Part shown: piece after piece, positions 17,352-46,000 of the stretch
Layout of the letters: each line of letters starts with the position of its first letter
Position numbering within the stretch: the first letter of the stretch is position 1
DNA from: Bolinopsis microptera
Lineage: Eukaryota; Ctenophora; Tentaculata; Lobata; Bolinopsidae
Assembly (NCBI RefSeq): GCF_026151205.1
Contig: NC_087081.1
Coordinates: 9,983,113-10,047,112, forward strand
Reading direction: 5' to 3'
DNA: 64,000 bases
Notes under the pieces: generated by a model
Database searches by the model: none
The model's input: only the letters and a program-made list of their open reading frames with translations
Told to the model about the DNA's origin: nothing
Position numbers and translations under genes: made by a program

Positions 17352-18783
17352 ACCTGGGGACCTCAGCTAGGCTATCATAATCGAATAGAGAGTAGGCGGA
17401 ATAATAGGCTGTTCGCCGCCCAGCAAGGCGTGCCAGGCAAGGTTTTTGGTTAAAGTATTATGTTAATTTATAAGAGACGGTACCATACGTGATGAGTATT
17501 GAGTTTGAGTTGCGTCGTCAGTCTTGCTCTAACCATGCAGAGCCCTGATCTCTCTAGCCTTGCAGTAGCGCGTCACGCAGTACGAGTAGACTCATGCATC
17601 ATGGCTATGTGAATCGTCGCGTCAGTCGTACGTGCCGTATGGTTATTGGCTAAGACCTCAGACCACGACACGTGATCAACGGGTGATACTCTTAACATAT
17701 TTTTACGCAATACCGTCGACGAATGCAACACAACTGACAACATGACTCGCGGCGCGCGTTTTGATTGGTTATAAGCCTACAAATCACCACACATTATTTA
17801 CTGGGCGGCGCTCAGCCTGTCATTCCGCCGAATCTTTATTCGGGCTGAGTGAATTACGACCTCCATCGCCCTGAAAAAAGTGCGAATGCTCATAGGATGT
17901 TAGAGCGCACGTGACTAGCATTCACGTGATCGTTCAGAACCATTTACAGCCGCGCAATTCAAAAGATCACGTGCACGTCAAGATGATGATTAATCACTAC
18001 ACTCGACTGTCACGTGACTTTTTCAATTCAACCCATTCTCTAGCTGGCCCTGAACGACTATTCGAAATCTTGATTCACGATGTCAATCCTTCGCATCTCG
18101 CCGATCTGCACACCCTCTAATCTGATCCCAACCCTAACCCTAACCCAATCCCTAACAAAAGCATATGCTGAAATCCTAACCCTAACGAGAAATTAGACTA
18201 ACTTCCTTATCACTTATACAGTCATATCACGTGATTGACGGATGTTACTCGTCTAAATTTCTTCGAAGTAGCGCGCACGAGCTACGAAGTACCGCGCGCC
18301 GGGCCAGATCATTAACAATGGTCAAATCACGTGATCGAGATCGAAACAGTTTTTCGTCAATATCTCGTCAGGGAAGTATTTTACCTTTATGTCGTCAGTC
18401 GTGGGGGTGATTCGGAATTAGCGTCCGAAAATACATCTATTGAAGTTGGTTTCAACTTGACCATTGTTAATGATCTGGCCCGGCGCGCGCTACTTCGTAG
18501 CTCGTGCTTCGAGAAGAAAGTGGCGCGCGCTACTTCGAAGAAATTTAGACGAGTAACATCCGTCAAGTTTCAATACAAGTTTCAATACAACTGTCGGGGG
18601 CCCTCATAGAACAATCTCGAAGATCGACTATATAGTGATTTAGCACGCTCGTGCACGTCAACTACTAATTGGAAAAAAGTGACGTATGCGCTATACTACA
18701 AGAGCCGCGCGCTGAGTTAGATTGTAAAATCTGATTATTTGATTGTAAAATCGCATAAACGCTTCTACTTGCGCGTTTTAGAG
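17352..18783. repeat. Tandem duplication, unit 2 (~1.4 kb)
   Basis: Second copy of 15772-17296. It lacks the 110-bp segment and has a short extra duplication of AAGTTTCAATAC near 18570-18590. Otherwise only scattered substitutions are seen, so the duplication is recent. Confidence 0.9.
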
Positions 18784-20398: not shown

Positions 20399-20594
20399 AC
20401 ATAAATTTTTTCCCCTAAAATCGAACGCTTTCTGCTCAAAAAATTGACCTCAACAGAAAAAATTAAACATGGCTTCAAATCCAAATTTGAACCAGAGATT
20501 TTTCACTTCCTCTCGATAAACTCAATTTTCAACCCAAAATAAAGTCTCAAAGGGGTAAATTACTCAGGTCAGGATTGTAGGCAATGATTATCAT

Positions 20595-20672
20595 TTTTAC
20601 TACTTTCATTACGTCATTTTTATTCATTTTTACTACTTTCATTACGCATTTTTACTACTTTCATTACGCATC
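20595..20672. repeat. Short direct repeats upstream of ORF1
   Basis: TTTTTACTACTTTCATTACG occurs two to three times ahead of the ORF1 start, with partial copies. In LINEs, 5' UTR tandem repeats often carry internal promoter activity; here that is only inference. Confidence 0.5.
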
Positions 20673-20733
20673 AATATTTTTCCTCTGTAATCTACCTTTT
20701 CTTATCGCACTGAGCTTGTGATTTATACTGATC

Positions 20734-22503
20734 ATGCGACGAAATTCTACACCTAATACCTCTACACCTACATCATCCCAGAGGAAGAAACTAGCTTCTA
20801 AGGCTGCTTCTGAGTCAATCGCTGACTCAGAAGCACCTTCTACCGGTATGTTGGGGCTTGGGGTGTCAGGGAATTACACGTTTGCAGCAACAACATGCCT
20901 TCACTTGTTAAGCTTACTGCCAGCTCCCGATTTAGATTTTGAGTTCGAAAGACTCCGCCTCCTTTCGAAAAGTGCTACTAAAGCAAGCACAACGGACAAC
21001 AAAATTTCTTTTTTAAGGAAACATTTATTAGGGCAATGTGCCCTAGACGCTGACGAGACAATGAACAAATTAACTGCGAGTCTAAAACTCATTTCATGTA
21101 CCGTTAATGAAGAGGTTGAGAAGGCGGTCAACAACATCACGGAACGAGCCTGCACTGCGATCCAGGAAGTCTCTGAAGAGTCCAGGAAGCAGACCTCTCT
21201 CATCGTTGAAGCAGCTAGCAGTAGTTCTCCACAGACTCTCTCCCCTTCCGGTGAAGTAGAAAGCATACCTAACCCACCACCTCCGGTAAGATTTTTGGAC
21301 TGTGACTTTGGTGATCTTTCTTTTGATGAAATCTACCGCGAGCTTGACTTTAACATGAAACACCCGGGGGGCCGTTCAACGTCATATTTTGGCTCGGTAC
21401 CTTACAGTTATGGCAGAACCAACCACCGTGCAACCCATGATAAGCCCTTGCCACCTGTCCTAAAGCGCATTTTTGATTGTTTGCATGAATCCGATCCTGA
21501 CTTTACTCCCACGAACTATACCTGCCTCTGTACTTACTATAAGGACGGGTCAGTTGGTATTCCATTGCATAGTGACAGCGAATCCAGCATTGTTGAAGAT
21601 AGTCTGATTTACACTGCATCATTTGGCTCTACCAGAATTATGAGAATGTCAACGTCGACAGGCCCTTTCGTTGAGCATAACATCCCGCTTGAGCACGGCT
21701 CTGTCTTTGCAATGTCTCGATCTGATCAGAACCACTGGCAGCACGGCATTGAACGTGATCCTATGTTAAGGCAGCCACGAATCTCGCTCACTCTTCGCAA
21801 GTTGAAACAGCCTGATCCCACGGCCTTACCAGCACCTGCAGCCCCTACTCGGGTCCCGCCTGTTGCACCACCTACACAGATACAGTCACCAGCGTCCCGT
21901 CACTCCAGAGTCCTCTTAATTCACGACTCAATACACCGAGAAACGCCAGAATGGCTGTTCGACCAGATACCTGGCCACCGATGTCAAAAGCGCCTTAACT
22001 ATCAACTAGTGAACTCACTGGAACATCAACATGAGTTCAAACATTCTAAAGCAGTCGTACTTTCCTGCGGCATTAATGACCTAGCTAGGTATGGGCAGTC
22101 GGCCAGGAGTCTTGCGGACAATTTCTGTCCCCGTTTTATAGACTCTTGTAACAATAACAAGAATACCGAGTTTATGTTTTGTGCTTTATCTATGACTAAA
22201 TTTAACTGGTTGAATGCAGAGATTGACGCTTTTAATATCATAATGTTGAACCTGGCTAAGGATATTCCAAATCTGAGTTTTTTCGATGCCCATGCCGTGA
22301 TCAAGCGTGCTAACTCATACTACGTATGGGACCGCAACGACAGACATGGCATCCACTTATATCACGAGGTGCAAAGGGTAGTGGCACATGAACTTGTTAA
22401 CTGCGTTGGCAAGTTATGTGGATCTGAACAGAGACGTCACAGGAACTGTGAGTGGCTCTATCACCACAAGCCTAACAGTCTCTCCAGATATAACCGAAGC
22501 TGA
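20734..22503 (+). CDS. Element A ORF1: AlkB-like 2OG-Fe(II) oxygenase plus SGNH hydrolase
   Basis: 589 codons. Residues 1-180 form a polar N-terminal region with a helical segment (about 85-160) that may oligomerise. Residues 230-356 form an AlkB-type dioxygenase: H279-S-D281 (IPLHSDSE), distal H337 (HWQHGIE), and R349/R355 in RISLTLRKL, which would bind Fe(II) and 2-oxoglutarate. Residues 360-385 are a Pro-rich linker. Residues 390-555 are SGNH-like: Ser399 in LIHDSIH, N448 in CGINDL, H541 in HGIHL. The position three before that His, usually Asp, is His538, so esterase activity may be altered. AlkB enzymes remove alkyl or methyl groups from nucleic acids. An ORF1 role in protecting or editing retrotransposon RNA is inference. 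The Met at 20734 is the first in frame. Confidence 0.8.
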   Translation: MRRNSTPNTSTPTSSQRKKLASKAASESIADSEAPSTGMLGLGVSGNYTFAATTCLHLLSLLPAPDLDFEFERLRLLSKSATKASTTDNKISFLRKHLLGQCALDADETMNKLTASLKLISCTVNEEVEKAVNNITERACTAIQEVSEESRKQTSLIVEAASSSSPQTLSPSGEVESIPNPPPPVRFLDCDFGDLSFDEIYRELDFNMKHPGGRSTSYFGSVPYSYGRTNHRATHDKPLPPVLKRIFDCLHESDPDFTPTNYTCLCTYYKDGSVGIPLHSDSESSIVEDSLIYTASFGSTRIMRMSTSTGPFVEHNIPLEHGSVFAMSRSDQNHWQHGIERDPMLRQPRISLTLRKLKQPDPTALPAPAAPTRVPPVAPPTQIQSPASRHSRVLLIHDSIHRETPEWLFDQIPGHRCQKRLNYQLVNSLEHQHEFKHSKAVVLSCGINDLARYGQSARSLADNFCPRFIDSCNNNKNTEFMFCALSMTKFNWLNAEIDAFNIIMLNLAKDIPNLSFFDAHAVIKRANSYYVWDRNDRHGIHLYHEVQRVVAHELVNCVGKLCGSEQRRHRNCEWLYHHKPNSLSRYNRS

Positions 22504-23145
22504 GCGCTTTACAAATCATTGATACCATTCTGATTAAAAAATGCGATTCACTTTTTTCTCAACTTCCAGTCCACCTTTAACAGATCGTTACCAAGATAGA
22601 TCATATTATAATGAAATGATCTGATTGGTGGAATTTTTCTCATTATCTGATAAGCTCATTCATTATCAGTATCTCTTATCACCCGATCGCACACAAAACA
22701 TCTTACTCTACAAATCTGTATCATCCTAAATCAATGAGATTTCATAACTCTATACAACATTCAAAATTCACATACAAATCTATAAATAATCAAGTGCGTT
22801 CTCTTCAGTATTACTCAAGTTCAGTGCGATAGTCCCTTATTACGTAAACGCTACAAACAAATCAAATACAAATAACACCTCACAAAACTACACAACACAA
22901 AAGCTACCACTTTATTCGATTTCTATTTTTTAGCCAAATCAGTTATTTAAATCATACTGATAAGGCCCTAGATAAGGACACTTTATTTCACTTAATTATC
23001 CGATTTTAGCTTAAAATAATATAATTTACTTTTAAATCATATCACGATTCTGTAGCATACAGGACCTCCGGTTCTCGTGAAAGAATCTGATTTGAACTAT
23101 AGTTTTATATACTATCAGTATCATAATCATAATATTTAGTTATAA
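22504..23145. other. Inter-ORF spacer of element A
   Basis: 642 bp of AT-rich, non-coding DNA between ORF1 and ORF2. No repeat or RNA gene recognised. The spacing contrasts with element B, whose two ORFs overlap. Confidence 0.5.
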
Positions 23146-26100
23146 ATGGAACCCACTGTTACATCTGAAAATAAAGTCAAGATCAAATGTTCAAGCTGCA
23201 GCGGCTGGTGTTACTCTATTAGAAATATTCGCACATGCTCATGGTGTCAAAGTAATGTCCATGTCAAATGTTTTAAGGATAATTTAGGCTGTACGAGTTG
23301 CTGTGAAAGTATCATTCCTGGATTTCACGCAACCTACTATGAAATCTATGACGACTACAGTAAACTTAATAGTGACATATTTAATCCGTACGATCAGAAT
23401 AGTCGATTTAATCTTATTGGCGACGCCATGACCAACGAAGAGCATCAAGATTCAACTTGGAGCAATATTTCATCTTTCCTAACTAGTTGTCAGTATAAAC
23501 AACAACGTAACGTGAAAAAATCTACCTGCTCTCAACTTAAAACATTTTCTATGAACATAAGATCCCTTATTAAGAATATAGATCAACTACGTGATGATAT
23601 TGAGACTTATGATAAGTATGATATATTGTGTTTTAACGAAACTAATTGCACTTTAGGGAAATTACCGAACGGAATAAACGACGTTACCTTAGATGGATTT
23701 CATGAACCATTTATCCAGGATCCAATTCGCCCATCTGGAAAAGGTGGGGGGCTAGCCACTTATGTACACAAACGTGTAGTCGATTATGATAAAATTGATA
23801 TTTTCACTCCAAACCCTGAACCAACTAATACTAGTGGCGAATTTCAATTTATCAAGCTCCATCAGTGCAAAGGATACAACAGAACGAAAATAATTGGCAA
23901 TGTTTACCGTTCTCCCGCTAGGAGACCTGAAGCGTTTCTAGAAATTTTCAAAAATACGCTGCACAACCTAGGGAGACACACCCGTAAACATATGACGCTT
24001 CATGGAGATTTCAACCTTGATTTACTGAAGCACAGCAGCGACCAAGCATGTCAGAACATTATAGATATTGCGTCCTCTTACGGTTTTATTCAAATTGTAT
24101 CACGCCCAACTCGCCTAACGGACCATAGTGCCACGCTTATTGACCACATCTACACAAACAATCTTGAGGATACAATAAGCTGTAACGTCTTAACGACAGA
24201 TATGTCTGATCACTTAGCAATAGTCACTACAATAAATCTTGATAACACGCCAACCAGCAGCTACCGCTCTGCGTCTAACTCACAAAATGTATCTCAAACT
24301 GAAACACGTAGATTTAACGACACCAACAATCAAAAATTCAGAGACTTAATTACAGATGAAAGTTGGTCAGAAATTTTTAACAATACCAATGATGCCAACG
24401 AACAGTTCAATAATTTAAATACGGCTTATAATAAGATTTACGAGTCCGCCTATCCCACAAAAAGACAATCACGAAGACAAAATGAACGTGTTAATCCGAA
24501 ACCATGGATGCTGCCCTGGCTCGAAGAAGCTATAGAACGTAAAAATGAGTCATATTATGATTTTGTTAAGGAACCATCTGATAGTAACCGCAGTAAATAT
24601 GACCGTCTGAAGAAGTTTTGTAATAAACACATCGATAAAGCTAAAAACAAGCACTTCAAAAAATTTTTTGAGCAAAACAAAGAAAATTCTAAGAAGCAGT
24701 GGCAAATGATAAACAGTCTTCTTAATAGGAAAAAATCTAAACCTACTTCAATTAAACTGACTGACGAAGACGGCTCAATCAGCACTCCGGCAGCTGTAGC
24801 AGAAAAATTTAACGATTACTTCTCAAACATCGCTCCTAAAATTAAGTCTGAAATTAGTAGTAGGACCACTTTTGATCCTGGTGGAACCCATAGCACACTT
24901 CGCAACGCCACTCACTGCCACAGTCACTGCCAACATGAGGAAAAACCTGTGGTAGACACCGTGGAAGAATTCATCGACAGTGATGCTGAATCAGACCTTC
25001 TCCAATACTGCGAATCTCTTCAGTTCAGTCAGGAGAATGGGCATTCAGTATGTTCTTTTGGAGAGAAGTACAAGTATAGCGGATCCAGAGATGAGAATAA
25101 GAAAACCGTGGAGATCCCTGATAAAATTGCTGCACTTGTCCTGAAAATCAATGAGGAGTTCTGTGCAGAAGGAAACCCTGTAATGAATAGCGTGTTGATC
25201 AACCGCTATGAAGAAGGCGAGGGTTATCTGCCTGAACATTCAGACAATGAACCGGTGATACATCCAGAGTCTAGCATATTGACTCTTTCCATTGGAGGTG
25301 AATGCAAAGTCCTCTTCACTGAAATGAACAACCCAGTTCACACGCACAAGTGTACTCCAAGATCAGTTTACAGGATGACCAGAAGGAGTCAGGCTCACTA
25401 CAAGCACTCTATCCAGAAGGGGTCAGTCACTGGTGCAGTACGATATAGTTTCACCTTCAGATCAATAGATGGAAAGAATCGTGCCAGTACTTGTATCTTC
25501 TCTGATTCAAATGGAGCAGGTATGAAATTTGGAGAGGATCACAAAAGGAGCTTTGGTAAGTGGCTGCCTGGTCGGAATGTTTGGACTCCTACAATAGATG
25601 ACATTAACCCATATCTTGCATGTGGATACAAGAACATTGTTATTATGTGTGGTATAAATGATGTTAGAAGACCATCTGTTAAATCTCAGCGTGAAATTTT
25701 TGCTATATTTAGTCATCTAGAATTCAAGATTGAGCAAATTCAAGAGGCCAATCCAACTGCCCAAGTATTTCTTTGTCCTCTTTTACCAACTCGAAATGCT
25801 GATTTAAATAGGAAAGTTCTTTACTTTATAGAACTTATTCGTCGTGAGCTACTCCCCAAAAACTTTGGTGTCCAGTTCGTTGATGGCTTTGATGACTTCC
25901 TTGACAATAACACTGGCTTACTTTGCCTAACCTTGTCCAGGGAGTTTGACAGATATGGCCGAACGGATTACCTGCACCTTAATTGGAAGGGAGTGGCCAA
26001 ACTTGCTACTTTAATCCGTAATACTGTCCTTGTTAGGATGCATGGAGGGACTGATAGGAGGAAGAGGGGGAGGAGGGACGGTAAGGTTGGTTCAACACTT

Positions 26101-26157
26101 TATTCTCATGCCGCCGGAGGACAGCCTCATGTTGAAGGCTATCAGCCTCCAGCATGA
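23146..26157 (+). CDS. In-frame fusion: element A PHD-EEP joined to element B AlkB-SGNH
   Basis: 1003 codons made of two retrotransposons. Residues 15-52 form a C4HC3 PHD-like finger (C15, C18, C31, C34, H39, C42, C49, C52). About 125-365 is an APE-type EEP endonuclease: MNIRS, CFNETN, LHGDFNLDL, TDMSDHLAI. From about residue 581 (nt 24890) the pre-RT linker of A stops and the ORF1 of B begins, 5'-truncated. It holds AlkB H698-S-D700, H754 and R766/R772 (RYSFTFR), then SGNH Ser788 (FSDSNG), N838 (CGINDV) and D941-x-x-H944, all canonical. The C-terminus is basic and Gly-rich. The stop overlaps the next start as ATGA. The fusion is probably accidental, with one chance in three of frame agreement, but it is fully open. 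Confidence 0.8.
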   Translation: MEPTVTSENKVKIKCSSCSGWCYSIRNIRTCSWCQSNVHVKCFKDNLGCTSCCESIIPGFHATYYEIYDDYSKLNSDIFNPYDQNSRFNLIGDAMTNEEHQDSTWSNISSFLTSCQYKQQRNVKKSTCSQLKTFSMNIRSLIKNIDQLRDDIETYDKYDILCFNETNCTLGKLPNGINDVTLDGFHEPFIQDPIRPSGKGGGLATYVHKRVVDYDKIDIFTPNPEPTNTSGEFQFIKLHQCKGYNRTKIIGNVYRSPARRPEAFLEIFKNTLHNLGRHTRKHMTLHGDFNLDLLKHSSDQACQNIIDIASSYGFIQIVSRPTRLTDHSATLIDHIYTNNLEDTISCNVLTTDMSDHLAIVTTINLDNTPTSSYRSASNSQNVSQTETRRFNDTNNQKFRDLITDESWSEIFNNTNDANEQFNNLNTAYNKIYESAYPTKRQSRRQNERVNPKPWMLPWLEEAIERKNESYYDFVKEPSDSNRSKYDRLKKFCNKHIDKAKNKHFKKFFEQNKENSKKQWQMINSLLNRKKSKPTSIKLTDEDGSISTPAAVAEKFNDYFSNIAPKIKSEISSRTTFDPGGTHSTLRNATHCHSHCQHEEKPVVDTVEEFIDSDAESDLLQYCESLQFSQENGHSVCSFGEKYKYSGSRDENKKTVEIPDKIAALVLKINEEFCAEGNPVMNSVLINRYEEGEGYLPEHSDNEPVIHPESSILTLSIGGECKVLFTEMNNPVHTHKCTPRSVYRMTRRSQAHYKHSIQKGSVTGAVRYSFTFRSIDGKNRASTCIFSDSNGAGMKFGEDHKRSFGKWLPGRNVWTPTIDDINPYLACGYKNIVIMCGINDVRRPSVKSQREIFAIFSHLEFKIEQIQEANPTAQVFLCPLLPTRNADLNRKVLYFIELIRRELLPKNFGVQFVDGFDDFLDNNTGLLCLTLSREFDRYGRTDYLHLNWKGVAKLATLIRNTVLVRMHGGTDRRKRGRRDGKVGSTLYSHAAGGQPHVEGYQPPA

Positions 26158-29100
26158 ATGTTCTTAAAAAAGAGGTCTGTGCCCACTGTTTAAAAAGTAT
26201 TTACTTAGGTCAATCTATAATTGAATGCTACCACTGTAATTGTCCCATTCACTCTAGATGTTTTAACACCAGTGACAAACAAAATAAAAAAGTTGACTTG
26301 TACTGCAATAATTGTATCCACCTAGCAGTAAACCGTTATAACCCATTTAAGCTTCTGAATGATGACAATGATGACAACACTGATGCAGATGATGTAATAC
26401 GTAAAATCTCTGAGGTACTTGAAAGCTGTGACTCATATTCTGTAAAAGACATAAACCGCACCTTTGCTAACGAATTACAAGTGCAAAACTCACTAATATT
26501 TCAAAATCTTGATGGCAACAAATCAAACTTTGACTCGCTGGCAATTGAAATAGCTAGGTTTACTAACAAATTCTCTGTAATTGGTCTTGCTGAAACGAAT
26601 GTAGGCCCTGAAATGAAAAACTTGTACGAACTCACAGGCTATGAGAGCTTCTATCAAGATACCTTCGACTCGAAAGTAAAAGGCTCAGGAGTAGCTCTAT
26701 ATGTCCTGAACTCCTTCAATGCTGTCAAAAATAACAACCTTTCACAAGTAACAGAAAATCTAGAAACCCTCTTTGTAACTATAGGTAGTCTAGGAAATTC
26801 TACTTCTATAGGAGTAATATACCGCCCTCCAAGTGGCAATGCTGAGCAAGCTCTCCAAGAACTGTCGTCAATACTTGATAAAGCACCAAAACATACACAC
26901 ATTGCAGGTGATTTTAACATTAATCTCCATAGTAACCACAGTAGCATTATTGCACAGTATGAAGATGTCCTATTTAGTAGAGGCTTCTTTCCATTGATAT
27001 CATTAGCAACTCATGAAAAGCCTGGATGTAATGCCTCGTGCATCGACAACATCATTACAAATGACCTAGACTCTGTTACTGCCTCTGGAGTCATAACTGA
27101 TCACATATCTCATCACCTCCCTATATTTACAATATTTGACTGGGAAATTAGCAAGACCAAAAATATTCACAAGCACACTCAATATTATGACTATTGTAAA
27201 TCAAACACTGATAAATTTGCTGAAGTCTTGGGTAACAAACTAGACAATGAACCAATTATAGATTTTACTAACTTTCATGATATCTTTAAAAACAGCATTG
27301 ACGAAACCTGCAAACTAGCTGTACCCAAAACCACTAAGCGCACTATCCAGAACAACCCATGGATTACTGGCGGGATTATAGCCTCAGTAAACCACTGCCA
27401 TGGGCTGTATGATGACTGGGCGAAAGTCAGGAAAGTTAAGTGTAAACAAGGCGAAACTGACACAAAAGGGGGCACATGCCTGTGTTCTATCTGCTGTAAT
27501 AAAAGAAACCGTTATGATGACTACAAAGAATATAGAAAGGCTCTAAAAAAGGTTCGTAAAAAAGCTGTATCTGAATATTATTCTGACAAGTTTCTTGAAA
27601 CTCAGGGAAATTCCAAGAAAACCTGGGAACTGATAAATAAAATTCGTGGCAAACAGAAACGTGATATCAGACCTATATTTACCATAGACAATGAAAAGAT
27701 AACTGATCGCAGAGTTATAGCTAATGAATTCAATAAGTATTTTGTATCCCTAGCATCTAACCTTAATGCAGCCTACACAGAACTAGGAGAGATACAAATA
27801 AATCAGCTTCCAAGTTTCTGTGACTTCTTACCTAAATCGAATACAGCTAATATATATCTACATGACTGCTCACCTGAGGAGGTGGCTAAGATCATATCGG
27901 AACTTAAGAATGGCAAGGCTAGCGACATACCAGTACATATAGTAAAGGCAGTATCAGGCAAAATTAGCCCACTACTATCGGTATTGTACAACGAATGTAT
28001 GCAACAGGGATTTTTTCCAGACGACCTAAAAGTAGGTAAAATAAGTCCAATATATAAGAAAGAAAATGCTGAGCTTCTTGAAAATTACAGGCCTATCTCA
28101 ACCTTAGCGATATTCGGTAAAATACTTGAAAAAATCATATTCTCCAGGCTTTACAGTTTCTTTCAGTCGCAAGGATTATTATATGAAAATCAATATGGCT
28201 TTAGAAAAAATCACTCGACAAGCCATGCACTCAACTTCTCTGTCGACTACATTGAAAAATCTTTAAGAGATAAAAATCACGTACTAGGCATCTTCATTGA
28301 TTTAAGTAAAGCTTTTGACACAATCTGTCATGATAAACTGCTTAAAAAACTGAATGATTATGGAATTCGAGGGACTGCAAATAAATTGATAGCCAGTTAC
28401 CTTTCTAATAGACAGCAATATGTTTCAGTACTTGGAGAAGAATCCGAAAAACTGTCTGTAATATTTGGTGTTCCTCAGGGGTCAGTATTAGGTCCCTTGC
28501 TTTTCATTATCTACATCAATGAAATATACAGAGTATCAGACCTAGGTAAGTTTATACTTTTTGCCGATGACACCAACATATTTGTTGTAGATAAATGTAT
28601 AAAAACACTTTACTGCAAAGCTAATAAAATTCTTAAACTTGTTCATCAGTATATGAAGAGTAACTTGCTGCATATCAACATAAAGAAATGTTGTTATATC
28701 CACTTTAAGCCGAACTGTAGAAATGAACCAGATTCAAACACCAATGAATTAGAACTGACACTAAATAATATAGTAATTAAAAAGGTGGAGGAAACTAAGT
28801 TTCTTGGAGTCATTATTGACCAAAAACTGAACTGGGATGCTCACTTAAGAGCGTTAAACCGTAAATTGAAATGTGAGATAGGTAGACTATGTGGAATTAG
28901 ACGCTGTGTACCTAAAAAACTATATAAGGACCTGTACCACACCCTTTTTGAATCACACCTATGTTATGGAATATCTGTTTGGGGAGGTGTATCAAATAAT
29001 AAACTAGAAGCCATATTTAAAACACAAAAGAAATGCATAAGAATTCTCTTTGGTGATAATGATGCATACTTCAATAAGTTCAAAACATGTGCCAGAGTAA

Positions 29101-29537
29101 GGCCTATCACTAGGGATAAGACCGGTAAAGTTATCAAGCAGATGTTAGGCAAAGATTTCTTTGAACTAGAACACAGTAAACCAATCTGTAACGAGTATAA
29201 CTTCCTGACTGTCCACAATCTTCATAAGTTGCACTGTTTACTGGAAATGTTTAAAATTAATAAGTTCCAATCACCAGTCTCAATGTTCTCTTTATTCAAC
29301 AGGTCACCAAGACGAGACAACTACTTCATCCCACCCACTCCATCCTCACTATTCATCTATCAATCAACTAGTATTTGGAATCACTGCCGTAAGTCAACAA
29401 GTGAAATAGACTTCTCCACTCCCATCAGTATATTCAAGAATAATCTTAAGAAATCTTTGTTAGAACTACAATCTAAATATGACCGACAACTTTGGTGCAG
29501 TTACAACTTTGATGCAAATGAATTATCATTGAAATAG
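26154..29537 (+). CDS. Element B ORF2: PHD finger, EEP endonuclease, reverse transcriptase (intact)
   Basis: 1127 codons without interruption. N-terminal C4HC3 PHD-like finger: C9, C12, C25, C28, H33, C36, C51, C54. EEP nuclease at about 120-335: LAETN, IAGDFNINL and TDHISHHLPIF. A second Cys-rich patch (CLCSICCNKRN) lies at about residue 440-455. The RT core runs about 610-880: PIYKKENAELLENYRPIS, QYGFRKNHST, GIFIDLSKAFD, GVPQGSVLGPLLF and the catalytic FADDT. A thumb and C-terminal region follow (KFLGVIIDQKLNWDAHL). Length and order are those of CR1/Jockey-group ORF2 proteins. All catalytic blocks are present, so the enzyme could be active. Translation may depend on termination-reinitiation at the ATGA overlap. 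Confidence 0.92.
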   Translation: MNVLKKEVCAHCLKSIYLGQSIIECYHCNCPIHSRCFNTSDKQNKKVDLYCNNCIHLAVNRYNPFKLLNDDNDDNTDADDVIRKISEVLESCDSYSVKDINRTFANELQVQNSLIFQNLDGNKSNFDSLAIEIARFTNKFSVIGLAETNVGPEMKNLYELTGYESFYQDTFDSKVKGSGVALYVLNSFNAVKNNNLSQVTENLETLFVTIGSLGNSTSIGVIYRPPSGNAEQALQELSSILDKAPKHTHIAGDFNINLHSNHSSIIAQYEDVLFSRGFFPLISLATHEKPGCNASCIDNIITNDLDSVTASGVITDHISHHLPIFTIFDWEISKTKNIHKHTQYYDYCKSNTDKFAEVLGNKLDNEPIIDFTNFHDIFKNSIDETCKLAVPKTTKRTIQNNPWITGGIIASVNHCHGLYDDWAKVRKVKCKQGETDTKGGTCLCSICCNKRNRYDDYKEYRKALKKVRKKAVSEYYSDKFLETQGNSKKTWELINKIRGKQKRDIRPIFTIDNEKITDRRVIANEFNKYFVSLASNLNAAYTELGEIQINQLPSFCDFLPKSNTANIYLHDCSPEEVAKIISELKNGKASDIPVHIVKAVSGKISPLLSVLYNECMQQGFFPDDLKVGKISPIYKKENAELLENYRPISTLAIFGKILEKIIFSRLYSFFQSQGLLYENQYGFRKNHSTSHALNFSVDYIEKSLRDKNHVLGIFIDLSKAFDTICHDKLLKKLNDYGIRGTANKLIASYLSNRQQYVSVLGEESEKLSVIFGVPQGSVLGPLLFIIYINEIYRVSDLGKFILFADDTNIFVVDKCIKTLYCKANKILKLVHQYMKSNLLHINIKKCCYIHFKPNCRNEPDSNTNELELTLNNIVIKKVEETKFLGVIIDQKLNWDAHLRALNRKLKCEIGRLCGIRRCVPKKLYKDLYHTLFESHLCYGISVWGGVSNNKLEAIFKTQKKCIRILFGDNDAYFNKFKTCARVRPITRDKTGKVIKQMLGKDFFELEHSKPICNEYNFLTVHNLHKLHCLLEMFKINKFQSPVSMFSLFNRSPRRDNYFIPPTPSSLFIYQSTSIWNHCRKSTSEIDFSTPISIFKNNLKKSLLELQSKYDRQLWCSYNFDANELSLK

Positions 29538-30867
29538 GTTGATTTAGTAAACATAATCATATGAGTAAACCACGGTGTTATTGCAAAAAACCATGACAAG
29601 GGTATCAGACCTATATTAATCTAAGAGACGACACAAAACGAATCATCATACAACAAATTTTAAAATCCTGCGGCACAGGATCCTGTTGTTTTCCTACTCT
29701 ACCTCTCCCAAACCCCTCTCTCCTTCTCCTCTCTTCAGGTTTATTGTTCAATTTTTAAAAAAATTAGATAGCAGATATATTTTCTTTTAAATGAAGTAAT
29801 GGCATTATACATTGTTTGTTATCGTATGTATGTTGTGTATAGTGTTTGCTGACTGGGTATATGCTATATATTTTGAGGCTCACGACGTCTCGTCCCATGG
29901 GTGGAGTTGTAGGCTGAGTATGTGTTCAAATCTCCTTACTTCGTATGGTGAAACATTGAAAGGTTTGCCTTAGCCTTTGGGACGAGTGTTTGCCCACCGG
30001 GGATCCAAATATATGATTATCATGGACATTACTTTGACACATAAACTAATCAAACGACTTTAATGATTCCAGAAAATTTTACTAACTGCATTTAGCTAGT
30101 TTATAGTAAATACACACGATCGCAGAATAGAGGAGCACAATTGGGTTCCTTGTTCTGCGACTGTGTTTCCTCGGTGGGCCGACAGGTTTTTGTTGTGTAG
30201 TAGTGCTGGGGAAAAAAACGCTTTAACTATCAATGAGAGTACAAATTTTTAATTCTTGACCTTAGTGCCACAGTTTCTGTGGTAAAAACAAATTTATAGT
30301 TAAACGTTATATATTGTAGAAGGGCATGATTTACTCACATCACTAAGCATCTGGATGGATAATTAGCACACAAAGATAAACTGACCTTTAAACATGACCA
30401 CCAGCTATACCACGTAACCATAGCTCAGAAATAAATAAATTGCTCTACATAGAAACATCTGGCCTGATCCTATCACATTGTGGTCCCCAGGGGTTCGGTA
30501 AAGCCCTTACAGGCAACTGGGTCCTTTTACCAGCCACAATAAAATTGATCATGCCAGTACTGTCATAAACTGTAACCAACTATTTAAAAATTAGATATCT
30601 TTTGCTAAATTTTAAATTTTAAGTCATAGAGCAATCTTCTCAATTTAAAAATTTTTAAGAATTATATTTTACCCTAACTATGATGTGGTGGCATTTCATA
30701 CTTAACTAAATTTCAACTTTGAAAGTAAATAGATTATTAGTGACAACAAAATTATAGTTTAAGACATCCATTCTGCATTGTGTTTCCAATATTAGAATTT
30801 ATGATATGTATTGATTGAATAATTGGTAATAAATTTAACTTTTGTTTTAACTTTTGTTTTATTAAAA
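29538..30867 (+). other. 3' region of element B, non-coding
   Basis: AT-rich with no supported gene. It ends in two AACTTTTGTTTT repeats and ATTAAAACAG immediately before the linker sequence of element A resumes. Confidence 0.5.
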
Positions 30868-32541
30868 CAGAAATTCAGGACGTCATAAACCTGCTTAAGA
30901 ATAAAGCCAACACTAGACACTAAAATTGAACCTCTAAAAATCGCTAACAGCTGTCCCAGTTTTACTAGTGTACTAGCCCACGTTGTCAACAGTTCTTTTG
31001 AACAGGGGATCTTTCCACAGGCTTTGAAAGAAGCGAAGGTGGTCCCAATTCACAAAGGTGGATCTAAATCTGACATAAAAAATTACAGACCAATATCTCT
31101 TCTTGCTTCTTTCTCTAAAGTATTTGAAAAGCTAATGCATAACCGAGTTATAAGTTTTTTAGATAAATACAGCATACTATGTGAAAACCAATACGGTTTT
31201 CGCCCGGGTAGGTCTTGTGAACATGCTCTTCTCAACGCAAAAGACACCATTCTTAATTCAATGTCTAAAAAGCAGGTAACTTTACTTCTTTTAATCGATT
31301 TCAGCAAAGCTTTCGACCTTGTGGATCATTCCATACTCTTGCGCAAGCTGGACCATTACGGCATAAGGGGTCAAGCCTTAAACTGGTTTAAGTCATATCT
31401 CACTAACAGGAAACAGTTTGTATCAATTGGCTCGTCAAAATCTTCAACCAACCAAATTTTATACGGCGTGCCTCAAGGGTCAATATTAGGACCTTTACTT
31501 TTTATAATCTACATAAACGACCTGCCTCAAATATCAGATATAGCCAATTTCATTATGTACGCAGATAATGCCAACATCTTCCTGATAGGAGAAAATCTTA
31601 ATGAAGTTTACGATAAACTAATAACTCTTAGCGATGCTTTAGTTAAATGGGTAGATAACAATGGTTTAGCTCTCAACCTTAAGAAAACAAATTATATGAT
31701 CTTCTCTCGACAAAGAAATCTTAATTATCGTGATGTGGCAATTTCTGGTGTCACAATTGAGAGAAAAACAGAAGCCCGTTTTTTAGGAGTTATAATAGAT
31801 GATAAACTAAACTGGTCCCATCATATTTCTGCCATGAAAATGAAAATGTCCAGATACATAGGAGTCATGTACAAACTTAAAAAATATCTGCCTCTCGAAG
31901 CACGTCTTCAAATTTATCAAAGTTTTGTGCAGTCACACCTTAATTATTGCAGCCTTGTATGGGGTTTTGCTGCCAAGTCTCATATTGAATCGCTTTTTGT
32001 AAAACAGAAAATGGGCCTTCGAGCAGTATTACCTGGTTTCGTCAATTACTGGTACAAGGACGGTATCCCCCCAGCAAGTACCAAGTCTGGCTTTTATTCA
32101 CATAAAATATTGACAGTACACAGTATCATTGTAAAGAACGCACTCATTTTAATGCATAAATTGAAAAACTTTCCTCATCTAGTACCATTGTCTCTCAAGA
32201 AAACAATTCCCAAAAGCGCACCATTGTTTAATACTAACCTGGATTCTATTTTCACTACACAATGGTCAGAAAAGTATGGTCAACACCCTTACAACAACTC
32301 AGTATTTTTTAAAGGTCCATTATTAGCAATAAACCGATATAATGTTGCAGCAACTTCCCCGCCTAGTCTATTTAACCTGAACATTTACAAAACTTGTATA
32401 AAAACTATGCTCATCGATCAGCAAAATGAAAACATCGAAGACGATTGGCCTAATTTCATGTTATATTGTATAACAGGACTAAGAAAATCAAAGCGTAACA
32501 TAAACCAAAATGCCGATAATAACCTTGTCTCTACATCTTAG
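30868..32541 (+). pseudogene. Element A ORF2, 3' half: inactivated reverse transcriptase
   Basis: EIQDVINLLKNKANT (from about 30870) is followed by a frame change near 30915. An open frame then runs to 32541: PLKIANSCPSFTSVL, FPQALKEAKVVPIHKGG, NYRPISLL, QYGFRPGRSCEHAL, LIDFSKAFDLVDH, GVPQGSILGPLLF and the thumb RFLGVIIDDKLNW. The active site reads MYADNANIF, so the second catalytic Asp of YADD is Asn. The sequence before the RT core matches the linker lost from the 23146 frame at about 24890, supporting one original ORF2. With the frameshift, the insertion and YADN, this copy cannot be active. Confidence 0.8.
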
Positions 32542-33292
32542 ATTATATGCACACACTTATGCATCACTCAATAAACGTCGCATATCTCATCAATTACACT
32601 GCCAACATAGGACATTCTTTTTTATCGCCGCGATTTCAAATCAAGTTACAAATTCTACAAATTTGAAGTGCTCAGTCTTGTTTTACTTTTCTTATCTTTA
32701 CCTATTAACCATTGGAAAATAAAACTTTAAGCTATAAACCTTCATTGCATACTTTACCGGTAGAGTCTAAATTGAATAGTTTGAGATTTCCTTTACATTT
32801 TATATTTATGCATGTGCCCCACGGGGATGAATTTCTTATTACCATTGATATTATATATACTTTTTTGAGTAAACATTGGCTGGTACCACGGGCCAGTCCC
32901 CAACAAAAAAAAAAATTATGCCAAACCATACATTTTTGTAAATTCATTAAACTTTCAATTTAGCCTAAAACACCCTATTTCGCACCCTAGCCCCTGCCAA
33001 TGGGGTCCGCCCCTTACCTGGACCCCGCTGGGGGCCGCGCCCCCAGACCCCTGCCACAGCTTGCAGCTTCGCTCGCCGACAGCCCCCCCCCCTCAAAGAA
33101 AAATCCTGGCTACGTGCCTGAGCAAAATATAGGTTTAGGGCTTTTCAGATGATTTGGCTCCTCAACAGATACCGATGTACATAACGGTCAATATAATATG
33201 TAGTTTAGGTTTAACTGGCCCGTCAGGTTACGAATGTGCCCGAGGAGGAAAAAAAAAGCAAACTTAAGAAAATTTCTCGGGAACTTAAAAGT
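32542..33292. other. Probable 3' UTR of element A and GC-rich patch
   Basis: AT-rich sequence, then a GC-rich stretch at about 32985-33100 with CCCCGCTGGGGGCCGCGCCC and C/G runs unlike its neighbours. No gene. The end of element A probably lies within it. Confidence 0.4.
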
Positions 33293-34387
33293 TCACCTCA
33301 AAACGAAATCTGCACCTATGGTAGTGTGTGCCTTTCTTCCTCTCCCGAAAATAAATCTTACAGCAGAATTTTGCACCTTCTGTAAACGACTTAAATCATA
33401 AGAGCTCAGTCCAAAATATATGCTATTGCAATAATCAATTCTAGGGAGTACTAGAGCATGAACAAGCTGAATCTTAAGGTTAAAAGACAGTTTTGATGCA
33501 ATAAACCACAAATTTCTGATCTGAATATTACATGCTTGAACCACTGACGTAATCTGATCACTCATTGAAAGATAACTGTCCAAATACAGCCCAAGACTCT
33601 TCACAGTTCCACTAACAACATGTGGCTCTTGATCCTTAACAATCTGTAGAGAGGCTGGAATATTTTTTGAGTCAAATTTAGAGGATATAACGATGACTTC
33701 AGTCTTAGAAGAATTTAGTTGAAGGAAATTGTTTGTCATCCATTTCTTGATATCAGACATACAGTGTTCCATATTGTGCTCTAGCTGTGATGGGTCATCA
33801 GAATCAAGAGTGAAATACAGCTGGGTGTCATCAGCATACAAATGAATACAGCACCCATGCATACTTGCAATGTTCTCAAGATCTTTGGTGTACAATATGA
33901 ATAGCAGGGGGCCAAGAATTGAACCTTGTGGCACACCTATCTCAAGAACAGTTGATGAGGAAGACGAATCCTCGACTTTGACACAAAATGAACGGTTAGC
34001 CAAGTAGGACCTGATCCATGTAAGAGCAAGGCCTGTAATGCCATAAGCAGATCTTAGCTTCTTGATTAATCTTGGGTGATTGACAGTATCAAAGGCAGCA
34101 CTCAAATCTAGAAGTAAAAGAACAACTTTAGTTTTCTTGTCAATAGTTATCAAGATGTCGTTATGGATTCTGGTTGTTGCAGTTTCACAGCTATGAAACT
34201 TCCTATAGCCAGACTGAACTTTAGAAAGCAAGTTGTTATCCTCAAGATAACTGGTGAGCTGTATAGATACACACTTCTCAATGATTTTTGACAAGAATGA
34301 GAGATTGCTAATAGGCCTATAGTTAGATAGAGATTCACCGTCAAGGCCACGTTTCTTCAAACTTGGACGAATGAGAGCCTCCTTAAG
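33293..34387 (-). pseudogene. Jockey/CR1-type LINE reverse-transcriptase fragment
   Basis: Minus-strand RT frame of about 365 codons: LKKRGLDGESLSNYRPISNL, YRKFHSCETA, LLLDLSAAFDTVNH, GVPQGSILGPLLF, the catalytic LYADDTQLY, and the thumb KSLGLYLD. It is cut at both ends. Upstream, EEP and N-terminal regions are absent and the frame runs into a minisatellite. Downstream it stops soon after the first part of the connection region (FGRGRKAHTTIG). It belongs to a different family from elements A and B, as shown by the different active-site context and the lack of neighbouring ORF1. Confidence 0.85.
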
Positions 34388-34620
34388 TATATCTCGACAC
34401 GTCGGGGTTTGTCGGGATTTGTCAGGGTTTGTCGGGGTTTGTCGAGCCTGGAGGCTACATGAGGCCTCCAAAAGCTGTGTCTCCAATGTCCCCAATGTCT
34501 CCAATGTCCCCAATGTCTCCAATGTCTCCAAAAGCTGTGTCTCCAATGTCTCCAGGACACGTCTCCGCACCCTATATTTTCAAAAAAGACAAGAGACATT
34601 GGAGACATTGGAGATGTGTC
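34388..34620. repeat. CGGGGTTTGT minisatellite element end plus inverted CCAATGTCTCC repeats
   Basis: 34388-34470 repeats the TCTCGACACGTCGGGG, minisatellite and GGCTACATGAGGCCTC end of the element at 1459-1790. Next, about eight 12-bp TCCAATGTCTCC-type units (34480-34555) are followed at 34589-34615 by the complement (GGAGACATTGGAGA), a foldback. Confidence 0.75.
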
Positions 34621-35173: not shown

Positions 35174-35869
35174 GTGGAGTTAATAGTTTTGTTGCATAAA
35201 ATGGCATCAAAGATAGCCCTTCAGAGATCATATCAACTTATCCTTCAAAACACAAAAGTAAGGACTAAAAATCTTGTCCCAGAGTTGAGTCTTTATCTTC
35301 TGGATAAATCGTGTCCTTGGTATTACCAAAAAGAAGTACCAGAACTGGAACATGACCCATTTTGGTCTGTATTTTGGCCTGGAGGTCAAGTCCTTTCAAG
35401 GTTTATATTTGATAATGAAAATGTGGTTAAGAATAGAGATGTTATGGATATAGGCTGTGGCTGTGGTGCACTTGGTATTGCTGCGAAAATAGCAGGGGCA
35501 AAATCAGTAATGTGTAATGACATAGATGAGTTAGCAATGGCTGCAGTTCAATTGAATTTCAAATTGAATGAACTGGAACCTCCAATACTTTCAGCAGAGG
35601 ATTTATTGCAAAGCTCGTCCATAATCCAACCAGAAAACACCACAATCTTTTTGGGTGACATGTTTTATGACGAGGTGATGGCAGGTAAAATTCTAGCCTG
35701 GTGTTTGAGGAACAACCAGATTGAAAATGATGTGTATATTGGTGATCCAGGTAGATGGGGTCTAGACTTTATAAAAGATCACATTACGAAAGTTGCAGAG
35801 TACGATATAAGTGATGAAGATTGTGATGAATTCAGGACTGCGTCAGTTTTCCAATTTATTTCAAATTAA
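35174..35869 (+). CDS. ETFBKMT: ETF-beta lysine methyltransferase, single exon
   Basis: 231 codons (222 if the second Met at 35201, ATGGCATCAAAG, is used). The mitochondrial enzyme of this family (METTL20) methylates lysines of the electron-transfer flavoprotein beta subunit using S-adenosylmethionine. Visible motifs: DPFWSVFWPGGQVLSR (61-76), SAM-binding motif I MDIGCGCGALGIAAK (91-105), acidic NDID (115-118), catalytic-region GDMFYDE (161-167) and GDPGR (190-194), in the family order. The N-terminus is basic with hydroxylated residues and could be a mitochondrial targeting peptide. Length matches the family (about 260 in human). No intron interrupts it, unlike other host genes here. SETD9 lies 235 bp downstream on the same strand. 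Confidence 0.92.
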   Translation: MELIVLLHKMASKIALQRSYQLILQNTKVRTKNLVPELSLYLLDKSCPWYYQKEVPELEHDPFWSVFWPGGQVLSRFIFDNENVVKNRDVMDIGCGCGALGIAAKIAGAKSVMCNDIDELAMAAVQLNFKLNELEPPILSAEDLLQSSSIIQPENTTIFLGDMFYDEVMAGKILAWCLRNNQIENDVYIGDPGRWGLDFIKDHITKVAEYDISDEDCDEFRTASVFQFISN

Positions 35870-36104
35870 TTGATCATGTTTTATTGATTAAATTGATGAG
35901 TTTTGATATTTATTTTATTCTTGGTGTGAATTTAATTTTCTCTCTCTTTCTATCTTCATTTTGAATTACCCTATCATTTTCCTAAATCGGATTATTCTTG
36001 ATATTAAATCTATTATATTATACTGTATGACTGCTCAAAGTTTATTCATCATCTACTTTTGTAGCACTCTTATCTAGACTCATCATAGCAGATGTTTTGA
36101 AATT

Positions 36105-36815
36105 ATGGTCTTCAAATCCTACAAAAGAAAACTGCTGCCTTGGATATATTTCAACTTCATCAAACATGCCAACGCTAAAGCACCAGTCGTGGACACTTCT
36201 CACATCATAAAAACTGTCTACAATCAATTAAACAATTTTGTACATTGCCCTGAATCCAACCTGGATAACATACACAAGACTCATGGCTTTACAGTAGGTA
36301 TAAAGGATAGTGCTCTGCACAATAGAGGTGTGTTTGTCACCTGCGGAGCTGTATCTCCTGGATCCATTATTGGTTATTATCCTGGAACTATATACCGTCC
36401 TGGTGATTCCATTTTCATCCAATCCATATCAAACTCGTATATATTCCAATGTTCTGATGGAACGTATATTGATGGGAAACATGATGGGATTTCAGGATTG
36501 TTTTATAAATCTTGCTCTCAGCGAAATCGTTTGGGTCCCCACATGACATGTGATGAATCGTGGTTAGCCCTTAAAAACCCTGTAAACCCCCTGGCCTGTG
36601 GTCAGATAGTAAATAACGGTGGCAACAAAACTTCAAATGTCAGTTACTGTGAAATAGACATAGATCTGAGGAAAGTTCCTTTAAAGCAGAGAAGATTTAT
36701 CCCAAACGTTTTATACTCAGAACCATCTGCTTACTTGAGAATGGTAGTTTTAGTTGCTACAAAGGAAATTGTAGAGGAGGAAGAGATATTGTCATCTTAC
36801 CTCTCCATTTTCTAA
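36105..36815 (+). CDS. SETD9: SET domain-containing protein 9, single exon
   Basis: 236 codons. A small SET-domain protein recognisable as SETD9: GVFVTCGAVSPGSIIGYYPG (75-94), SIFIQSISNSYIFQCSDGTY (102-121), YKSCSQRNRLGP (134-145), NPLACGQIVNNGGN (161-174) and EEEILSSYLSIF at the C-terminus. SET domains transfer methyl groups from S-adenosylmethionine to lysine, but the SETD9 substrate is not established. The canonical NHS motif is replaced by VNN-type residues, as I recall for this family. No introns. A strong acceptor-like sequence (CTACTTTTGTAG, ending about 36063) lies 41 bp before the start codon and could be a 5' UTR or trans-splice acceptor. Confidence 0.9.
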   Translation: MVFKSYKRKLLPWIYFNFIKHANAKAPVVDTSHIIKTVYNQLNNFVHCPESNLDNIHKTHGFTVGIKDSALHNRGVFVTCGAVSPGSIIGYYPGTIYRPGDSIFIQSISNSYIFQCSDGTYIDGKHDGISGLFYKSCSQRNRLGPHMTCDESWLALKNPVNPLACGQIVNNGGNKTSNVSYCEIDIDLRKVPLKQRRFIPNVLYSEPSAYLRMVVLVATKEIVEEEEILSSYLSIF

Positions 36816-43000: not shown

Positions 43001-46000
43001 TGGAAAACAAGTGAGTTTGTCACGCGTTACAAGACTATTGTCACGCGTTACAAGACTATTGTCACGCGTTACAAGACTATTGTCACGTGTTACACGACTA
43101 TTGTCACGTGTTACACGACTATTGTCACGCGTTACACGACTATTGTCACGCGTTACACGACTATTGTCACGCGTTACAAGACTATTGTCAACTGTTACAC
43201 GACTATTGTCACGCGTTACACGACTATTGTCACGCGCTACACAAGACTATTGTCACGAGTTACACGACTATTGTCACGCGTTACACGACTATTGTCACGT
43301 GTTACACGACTATTGTCACGCGTTACACGACTATTGTCACGTGTTACACGACTATTGTCACGAGTTACACGACTATTGTCACGAGTTACACGACTATTGT
43401 CACGTGTTACACGACTATTGTCACGCGTTACAAGACTATTGTCACGTGTTACACGACTATTGTCACGCGTTACACGACTATTGTCACGTGTTACACGACT
43501 ATTGTCACGCGTTACAAGACTATTGTCACGTGTTACACGACTATTGTCACGCGTTACACGACTATTGTCACGCGCTACACAAGACTATTGTCACGAGTTA
43601 CACGACTATTGTCACGCGTTACACGACTATTGTCACGTGTTACACGACTATTGTCACGCGTTACACGACTATTGTCACGTGTAACACGACTATTGTCACG
43701 TGTTACACAACTATTGTCACGAGTTACACGACTATTGTCACGTGTTACACGACTATTGTCACGCGTTACACGACTATTGTCACGCGTTACAAGACTATTG
43801 TCACGTGTTACACGACTATTGTCACGCGCTACACGACTAGTGTCACGCGTTACAAGACTATTGTCACGCGTTACAAGACTATTGTCACGCGTTACACGAC
43901 TATTGTCATGTGTTACACGACTATTGTCACGCGTTACAAGACTATTGTCACGTGTTACACGATTATTGTCACGAGTTACACGACTATTGTCACGTGTTAC
44001 ACGACTATTGTCACGCGTTACACGACTATTGTCACGCGTTACACGACTATTGTCACGTGTTACACGACTATTGTCACGCGTTACACGACTATTGTCACGT
44101 GTTACACGACTATTGTCACGTGTTACACGACTATTGTCACGCGTTACACGACTATTGTCACGTGTTACACGACTATTGTCACGCGTTACACGACTATTGT
44201 CACGTGTTACACGACTATTGTCACGTGTTACACGACTATTGTCACGCGTTACACGACTATTGTCACGCGTTACACGACTATTGTCACGTGTTACACGACT
44301 ATTGTCACGAGTTACACGACTATTGTCACGAGTTACACGACTATTGTCACGCGTTACACGACTATTGTCACGCGTTACACGACTATTGTCACGTGTTACA
44401 CGACTATTGTCACGCGTTACACGACTATTGTCACGTGTTACACGACTATTGTCACGCGTTACTCGACTATTGTCACGAGTTACACGACTATTGTCACGTG
44501 TTACACGACTATTGTCACGCGTTACACGACTATTGTCACGCGTTACAAGACTATTGTCACGTGTTACACGACTATTGTCACGCGCTACACGACTATTGTC
44601 ACGCGTTACAAGACTATTGTCACGCGTTACACGACTATTGTCACGCGTTACAAGACTATTGTCACGCGTTACAAGACTATTGTCACGCGTTACACGACTA
44701 TTGTCACGTGTTACACGACTATTGTCACGCGTTACACGACTATTGTCACGTGTTACACGACTATTGTCACGAGTTACACGACTATTGTCACGTGTTACAC
44801 GACTATTGTCACGCGTTACACGACTATTGTCACGTGTTACACGACTATTGTCACGCGTTACACGACTATTGTCACGTGTTACACGACTATTGTCACGCGT
44901 TACACGACTATTGTCACGCGTTACACGACTATTGTCACGTGTTACACGACTATTGTCACGCGTTACACGACTATTGTCACGTGTTACACGACTATTGTCA
45001 CGCGTTACACGACTATTGTCACGTGTTACACGACTATTGTCACGTGTTACACGACTATTGTCACGAGTTACACGACTATTGTCACGTGTTACACGACTAT
45101 TGTCACGCGTTACACGACTATTGTCACGCTGTTACACGACTATTGTCACGCGATACACGACTATTGTCACGCGTTACACGACTATTGTCACGCGTTACAA
45201 GACTATTGTCAGCGTTACACGACTATTGTCACGCGTTACACGACTATTGTCACGCGTTTACAAGACTATTGTCACGTGTTACGCGATTATTGTCACGCGT
45301 TACACGACTATTGTCACGGTGTTACACGGACTATTGTCACGCGTTACAAGACTATTGTACGTGTTACACGACTATTGTCACGTGTTACACGACTATTGTC
45401 ACGCTGTTACAAGACTATTGTCACGTGTTACACGATTATTGTCACGAGTTACACGACTATTGTCACGTGTTACACGACTATTGTCACGCGTTACAAGACT
45501 ATTGTCACGTGTTACACGACTATTGTCACGAGTTACACGACTATTGTCACGTGTTACACGACTATTGTCACGCGTTACACGACTATTGTCATGCGTTACA
45601 CGACTATTGTCACGTGTTACACGACTATTGTCACGCGTTACAAGACTATTGTCACGTGTTACACGACTATTGTCACGAGTTACACGACTATTGTCACGTG
45701 TTACACGACTATTGTCACGCGTTACACGACTATTGTCACGCGTTACAAGACTATTGTCACGTGTTACACGACTATTGTCACGCGTTACACGACTATTGGA
45801 TACTTTTCTCTTACGACTGAAGGGAAAACCTGTTAAACTTCCAAATTAAGCTGCTAGTGAAAACATTGCTGTAATTTTGTTATCGTCCAAATATCACTGA
45901 AGGAGAGGGAGGAGGTTTCTACATGATTACGCTAGCTTTGTATATATATAGCTTTGTATAAAACTGATTACGGAGGGGGAGGAAGGGGGATTAAAAATTG

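Follow-up and report, generated by a model that had tools for sequence, protein, structure and literature searches.

The window analysed here, a 64,000-nucleotide stretch of the ctenophore Bolinopsis microptera (contig NC_087081.1, positions 9,983,113 to 10,047,112), contains two long interspersed nuclear elements (LINEs), referred to as A and B, one of which lies inside the other. In each, the first open reading frame (ORF1) encodes a domain of the AlkB family of oxygenases, which use iron and 2-oxoglutarate (2OG), ahead of an SGNH hydrolase (esterase) domain. The initial annotation of the window had proposed this arrangement for two different elements, and both domain searches and uninterrupted genomic copies confirm it (Table 1).

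Nested elements A and B

Element A occupies approximately 20628-24913 and 30867-32914, a reconstruction based on genomic copies that are unbroken at the position where B is found. The insertion site was uninterrupted in eight of the nine A copies fetched, and the window carries 5.95 kb of foreign sequence there; in the ninth (L037) the region around the site is deleted and only 525 bp are left of the 3' part of A. Uninterrupted copies show the whole element to consist of 5' repeats, an ORF1 of 589 aa, an ORF2 of 1157 aa encoding endonuclease and reverse transcriptase (RT), and a 3' end CAACAA, after which most of the eight tails compared have an A-run. The exact 5' end depends on repeat number, and the alignments of L036 and L037 to element A begin at 20604 and 20600. 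Six of the nine copies have a full-length ORF2 (L031, L034, L035, L036, L038, and L039); L032 and L033 have a shortened one, and L037 has lost it. In the related family A2, each of the five copies fetched has an ORF1 of 597 aa and an ORF2 of 1158-1162 aa.

Element B is considered 5'-truncated because a relative, P0011, is longer by ~290 N-terminal residues. No more than ACAG is common to the two junctions as a candidate target-site duplication, and A has lost 26-32 bp at this site; the left end of B is accordingly given as a range. Since this truncated element inserted in ORF2 of A, the frame 23146-26157 (1003 aa) is a chimera, in which the start of A ORF2 and the remnant of B ORF1 were fused by chance. 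The AlkB-SGNH segment that had been read in this frame as B ORF1 is real, but the frame that carries it belongs to two elements.

The ORF2 products of A and B are 28% identical over ~1,000 columns, and their endonuclease and RT domains (Exo_endo_phos and RVT_1) fit the CR1/L2 lineage but are common to other LINE lineages. The Cys/His pattern at the ORF2 starts was recognized by eye only, and Pfam listed no PHD domain for A/B-type ORF2s. Among B-type ORF1 relatives, a PHD-like finger was found in 21 of 54 proteins of >=600 aa with an ad hoc pattern, and the Pfam PHD profile matched 7 of 58 at E <= 0.01.

Table 1. Coordinates of elements A and B and their parts within the window (UTR, untranslated region)
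Feature	Position	Strand	Remarks
Tandem repeats of ~22/33 bp, 5' end of A	20591..20671	+	repeat number varies from copy to copy
Element A, 5' part (5' UTR, ORF1, ORF2 start)	20628..24913	+	99.6-99.7% identity to L031, L032, L035
A ORF1, 589 aa: long helix (probable coiled coil), AlkB, linker, SGNH	20734..22503	+	
Residues 87-159 of A ORF1: extended helix, probable coiled coil	20992..21210	+	AlphaFold2 model, moderate confidence
A AlkB domain, residues 186-361	21289..21816	+	
A HxD iron ligands H279, D281	21568..21576	+	invariant in 107/107 aligned homologues; 2/109 gapped
A distal iron ligand H337	21742..21744	+	invariant in 108/108 aligned; 1/109 gapped
A 2OG-binding R349, R355 (RISLTLR)	21778..21798	+	invariant in 108/108 aligned; 1/109 gapped
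A SGNH domain, residues ~391-562; S399, N448, H541	21904..22419	+	
A ORF2, 5' part: PHD-like zinc finger (by eye), endonuclease	23146..24913	+	Exo_endo_phos E 5.6e-7; continuous with RT in L031
Element B, 5'-truncated, in A ORF2	24914..30866	+	left junction ambiguous, 24914-24924
B AlkB domain	24928..25473	+	from structure-model alignment
B ORF1 without N-terminal part: AlkB, SGNH	24931..26157	+	
B HxD iron ligands	25237..25245	+	invariant columns, 58-row alignment
B distal His (25405-25407) and Arg pair of RYSFTFR (25441-25443, 25459-25461)	25405..25461	+	invariant columns
B SGNH domain	25477..26031	+	
ATGA, ORF1 stop codon of B overlapped by ORF2 start codon	26154..26157	+	
B ORF2, 1127 aa: zinc finger (PHD-like, by eye), endonuclease, RT	26154..29537	+	RVT_1 E 5.6e-36; Exo_endo_phos
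Short tandem repeat (TTTAACTTTTGT) near 3' end of B	30834..30861	+	
Element A, 3' part (RT, 3' UTR)	30867..32914	+	99.1-99.8% identity to 7/9 fetched copies; L039 97.6%

AlkB-SGNH ORF1 proteins in several ctenophore LINE families

The 2OG-Fe(II) oxygenase profile PF13532, a match to which had been named at the outset as the test of the AlkB assignment, gave scores of 70.6 and 55.4 bits against a cut-off of 31.2, and structure models show the AlkB jelly-roll fold. Conservation was assessed in one alignment of 109 relatives, with counts covering the aligned rows. No aligned row departs from the iron and 2OG ligands of AlkB, five residues in all (Table 1), or from S399 and N448 (107 rows) and H541 (103 rows) of the SGNH domain. 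This is retention far above the average column: only 10 of 128 AlkB columns with >=100 letters are invariant, all five ligands among them, and the 3 invariant columns of 163 in SGNH (>=95 letters) are exactly the S, N, and H. The earlier suggestion that conserved ligands reflect selection is strengthened accordingly. In 33 genomic A-type loci, the five AlkB ligands and N448 were kept in all 33, S399 in 32, and H541 in 31; since 30 of these loci are the best-scoring of 76 A ORF1 matches (the others being L045, L046, and L047, described below), the count favours intact copies. With 5'-truncated copies aside, the expectation that other copies would keep the domain and its ligands held for every A-type locus read. 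The presence of S, N, and H in an ORF1 ahead of an endonuclease-RT ORF2 agrees with the esterase-type (type IV) class of LINE ORF1, whose N-terminal coiled coil would correspond to the helix modelled with moderate confidence in A.

Profile comparison with solved enzymes gave ALKBH3 as the nearest (E 3e-21), followed by ALKBH2 (2e-19), ALKBH8 (8e-14), NMAD-1 (1.5e-9), and Escherichia coli AlkB (3e-7), and DNA complexes of ALKBH2 and ALKBH3 top the second-round fold-comparison lists of the A and B models. Judged by sequence and by modelled fold, the predicted AlkB domain of A and B is nearest ALKBH3/ALKBH2.

The genome searched comprises 264.65 Mb in 232 contigs. A ORF1 had 76 matches (806 candidates, 74 scored), including six full-length ones at 100% identity, the window copy among them, with the remainder grouped near 97-98%, 62%, 38%, and 33-36%, plus others. 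For the AlkB-SGNH part of B there were 101 matches (938 candidates, 101 scored), nine of them full length at 99-100%, again with the window copy; others lay at 94-98%, ~50%, and ~45% identity, with many occupying frames that stay open for 700-751 aa. These near-identical full-length copies of A and B point to recent activity. Of the 43 matches to B ORF2, 29 start from its first base, and 28 of these directly follow an AlkB-SGNH match, one of the 28 having a broken ORF1 match of 65% identity located 115 bp away; 3 of the 31 B ORF1 matches used (rows at >=94% identity plus one at 65%) are without such an ORF2. Three further families, L045, L046, and L047, were hand-picked out of many. Pfam identifies AlkB in the ORF1 of each and lists no GDSL match at E <= 0.02, their SGNH motifs having been recognized from an alignment or by eye. 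L045 and L047 have a complete ORF2, and that of L046 is truncated. Several LINE families of this ctenophore, with intact frames, encode an ORF1 protein (ORF1p) with AlkB and SGNH domains and an adjoining endonuclease-RT ORF2.

An alignment of the A and B profiles runs through AlkB and SGNH with the order of the two unchanged (hhalign E 1.5e-37). Together with the AlkB tree from which one very long branch was dropped (described below), this makes a single AlkB-SGNH fusion predating the A/B split appear to be the simplest reading. A species name is attached to 4 of the 109 homologues, one from Bolinopsis and three from Mnemiopsis. Pattern scans of viral contigs with two alignments matched 35 and 39 stretches, none of which encoded a relative by tblastn. 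A further AlkB-bearing ORF1-like branch (P0111, P0112, P0115, and P0107) lies between the A and B types, with P0111 and P0115 continuing into SGNH-like sequence.

Across the genome, PF13532 gave at least 151 matches, host ALKBH genes included (587 candidates, 150 scored), and all among the matches listed exceed the cut-off. Six of them belong to open frames of 2,225-3,388 aa, far exceeding the length of a LINE ORF1 (G000:C10:16875843, C3:14441692, C12:8338315, C9:15868177, C12:2469580, and C9:11092850), and possibly represent another element class or a fused polyprotein.

Elsewhere in the window, the minus strand holds a further LINE-type fragment at 33293-34570; it encodes reverse transcriptase (RVT_1 E 1.3e-33) and adjoins short tandem repeats. 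Two ORFs of 231 and 236 aa at 35174-36815 resemble by eye an ETFBKMT-kind protein-lysine methyltransferase and a SET-type protein. Two satellites are also present, one at 43017-45798 (21 bp x 132 copies), which yields several long, apparently spurious open frames, and one at 59888-61509 (13 bp x 125 copies). Nested near-perfect inverted repeats with arms of 42 and 51 bp at 18235-18566 are fold-back-like or resemble a miniature inverted-repeat transposable element.

Possible roles of the AlkB domain

Both AlkB and esterase keep their catalytic residues, which suggests that these elements may mend their RNA, or clear it of marks, ahead of its being copied. Kinship to ALKBH3/2 rather than to ALKBH5/FTO favours removal of N1-methyladenine (m1A) and N3-methylcytosine (m3C) over erasure of N6-methyladenosine (m6A). 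LINE ORF1 proteins are RNA-packaging proteins that act on RNA within the ribonucleoprotein (RNP). Because ORF1p would in this way coat the element's own RNA, the AlkB enzyme would sit on the template, where an activity of the ALKBH3/ALKBH2 type could oxidatively demethylate m1A and m3C, both modified on the Watson-Crick face, and also erase damage or host-made marks. Since marks of the m1A/m3C type stop reverse transcriptases, a clean template would allow more full-length target-primed reverse transcription. Steps involving membranes or lipids would fall to the esterase, in line with the lipid role proposed for the esterase of fish L2 ORF1p (PMC3905857). N1-methyladenine and N3-methylcytosine are given as ALKBH3 substrates (PMC10816986), and modified bases can halt reverse transcription, with AlkB treatment giving back full-length complementary DNA (cDNA) (PMC7968990). 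We put this account forward tentatively, its chances falling a little short of even. Doubtful, yet worth stating, is a broader version in which ctenophore LINEs carry an enzyme of their own that clears m1A/m3C from the template and lets the ORF2 RT copy it to full length. In this version the fast-changing parts of AlkB would stem from an arms race against RNA methylation by the host, and AlkB-SGNH would be an old, deeply diversified module and no one-off capture.

Comparison of A with A2 (means of four pairs) gave proportions of nonsynonymous (pN) and synonymous (pS) differences of 0.213 and 0.733 for AlkB, 0.125 and 0.673 for SGNH, and 0.349 and 0.682 for the N-terminal part of ORF1, values that yield no exact ratio because silent sites are near saturation. 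Within families, the ratio was 0.43 for AlkB of A, and in ten A2 copies 0.80 for AlkB versus 0.10 for SGNH, with copies too alike for these figures to be firm.

Several observations weigh against template demethylation. The substrate of a putative AlkB enzyme would not be readable from the residues that are kept. In eight intact A2 copies, variable codons that change the amino acid outnumber silent-only ones by 16:6 in AlkB, as opposed to 16:33 in the rest of ORF1 (Fisher p 0.002, from a test picked after the counts were known and applied to nonindependent copies); part of the A2 AlkB domain is therefore fast-changing or relaxed. The same counts in family A were 11:7 for AlkB versus 15:14 for the rest (p 0.56), and A and A2 pooled gave p 0.006. 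Individual copies carry changes such as E283K (L023, otherwise open) and S399Y (L019). Furthermore, an AlkB tree was built from 49 LINE-type rows and 24 others, 73 in total; none of its branches set the LINE rows apart as one side, and human ALKBH2/3 were placed among stand-alone AlkB proteins, outside the LINE group. The split arose because P0143, with a branch length of 2.85, fell inside; with P0143 left out, the LINE rows form one side with support of 96/81. Of the ALKBH families, this unrooted tree covers ALKBH2/3, and its LINE rows are ORF1-like proteins, the adjoining ORF2 having been checked in Bolinopsis copies only. The variable AlkB codons of A2 (copies among L015-L024) spare all five iron/2OG ligands.

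Alternatively, AlkB might erase m6A on the element RNA and thereby shield it from decay or silencing by the host. Such a role has been proposed for the AlkB of a Ty3/Gypsy element of the orchid Phalaenopsis, a plant precedent (PMC9289625). An m6A-related role had figured in the initial annotation, and we now regard it as unlikely. The profile kinship is with ALKBH3, ALKBH2, and ALKBH8, no ALKBH5 or FTO chain was found among the 38 PDB sequences matched at E <= 0.001, and ALKBH2/3 were the sole AlkB proteins among the 50 matches listed in the fold comparison of the A model, though ALKBH5 was present, at lower Z, for the B model. In mammals, moreover, METTL3 promotes and ALKBH5 suppresses L1 mobility, the opposite direction to that expected of a protective m6A eraser (PMC7873242). 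An m6A eraser was accordingly set aside as the first-choice reading, since the profile kinship points elsewhere.

The domain might instead repair alkylated DNA, acting on nascent cDNA or on single-stranded target exposed during target-primed reverse transcription. The site of action of ORF1 proteins is held to be RNA in the RNP, and we think a DNA substrate improbable. In its favour, the DNA complexes of ALKBH2 and ALKBH3 head the second-round fold lists, and these two are stated to be the human members for which DNA repair has been confirmed in vivo (PMC7968990). A noncatalytic AlkB fold, retained in ORF1p for its structure or to bind nucleic acid, would suit the rapid amino-acid change in A2 AlkB, but variation in 118 of 128 columns leaves the five ligands untouched in all aligned homologues, and mere binding would require neither the two arginines nor the iron triad, making this explanation quite improbable. 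Finally, although the window frame 23146-26157 is truly a chance fusion of two elements, the idea that AlkB-SGNH ORFs are host genes or chance neighbours of LINE debris is scarcely credible, being contradicted by multiple copies with common boundaries, a constant ORF1-ORF2 order where uninterrupted, and the common CAACAA end with its usual A-run.

Comparison with known systems

AlkB is known from RNA viruses and a plant long terminal repeat (LTR) element. The initial annotation treated an AlkB domain ahead of the SGNH domain of LINEs as not known to have been described. No LINE with AlkB was found among the papers listed by literature searches aimed at AlkB in retroelements, although prior mention in subscription papers or Repbase entries is possible. 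AlkB-SGNH extends the known ORF1 architectures, in a host phylum of early-branching animals. With a demethylase-type ORF1 domain in recently active elements, it would become directly testable whether reverse transcription in vivo is held in check by modified RNA bases and whether elements fight back. The natural, diversified set of AlkB domains may also be of use in RNA sequencing chemistry. Like the AlkB of RNA virus replicases, the LINE domain is parasite-encoded, and viral AlkB models, RNA-virus polyproteins included, match the B model. In RNA viruses, AlkB sits in a replicase polyprotein and is not known to have an SGNH partner.

Elements A and B resemble CR1/L2 LINEs with a type IV (esterase) ORF1, such as zebrafish ZfL2-1, in having a C-terminal SGNH domain with catalytic residues, a coiled coil (probable here) before the esterase, two ORFs, and an endonuclease-RT ORF2 (PMC3905857, PMC4120745). 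The ORF1 types of CR1, L2, and Jockey elements include esterase and PHD types, with neither "AlkB" nor "oxygenase" in the main text (PMC4120745). Unlike in type IV ORF1 LINEs, AlkB here lies between helix and esterase, the host is a ctenophore, and in some B-type relatives ORF1 has a PHD-like finger as well.

The Ty3/Gypsy (Ogre-like) elements of Phalaenopsis likewise encode an AlkB-family demethylase, an activity that is predicted in the present case, but theirs is an ALKBH5-like m6A enzyme in an additional ORF of an orchid LTR retrotransposon, reported as a recent acquisition (PMC9289625). The ctenophore elements, in contrast, are non-LTR, join an ALKBH3/2-like AlkB to the ORF1 esterase, and form many divergent families in one genome. 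Capture of SGNH/GDSL by a retroelement is also seen in the LTR and Athena retroelements of bdelloid rotifers, where, however, the GDSL esterase is ORF3 and no LINE ORF1, and where the main text contains neither "AlkB" nor "dioxygenase" (PMC5408684). Human ALKBH3 and ALKBH2 share the fold and ligand pattern and are the best profile and second-round structure matches; they differ in being cellular enzymes with 18-26% identity in the fold lists, and the LINE domains occupy their own side of a branch in the tree without P0143.

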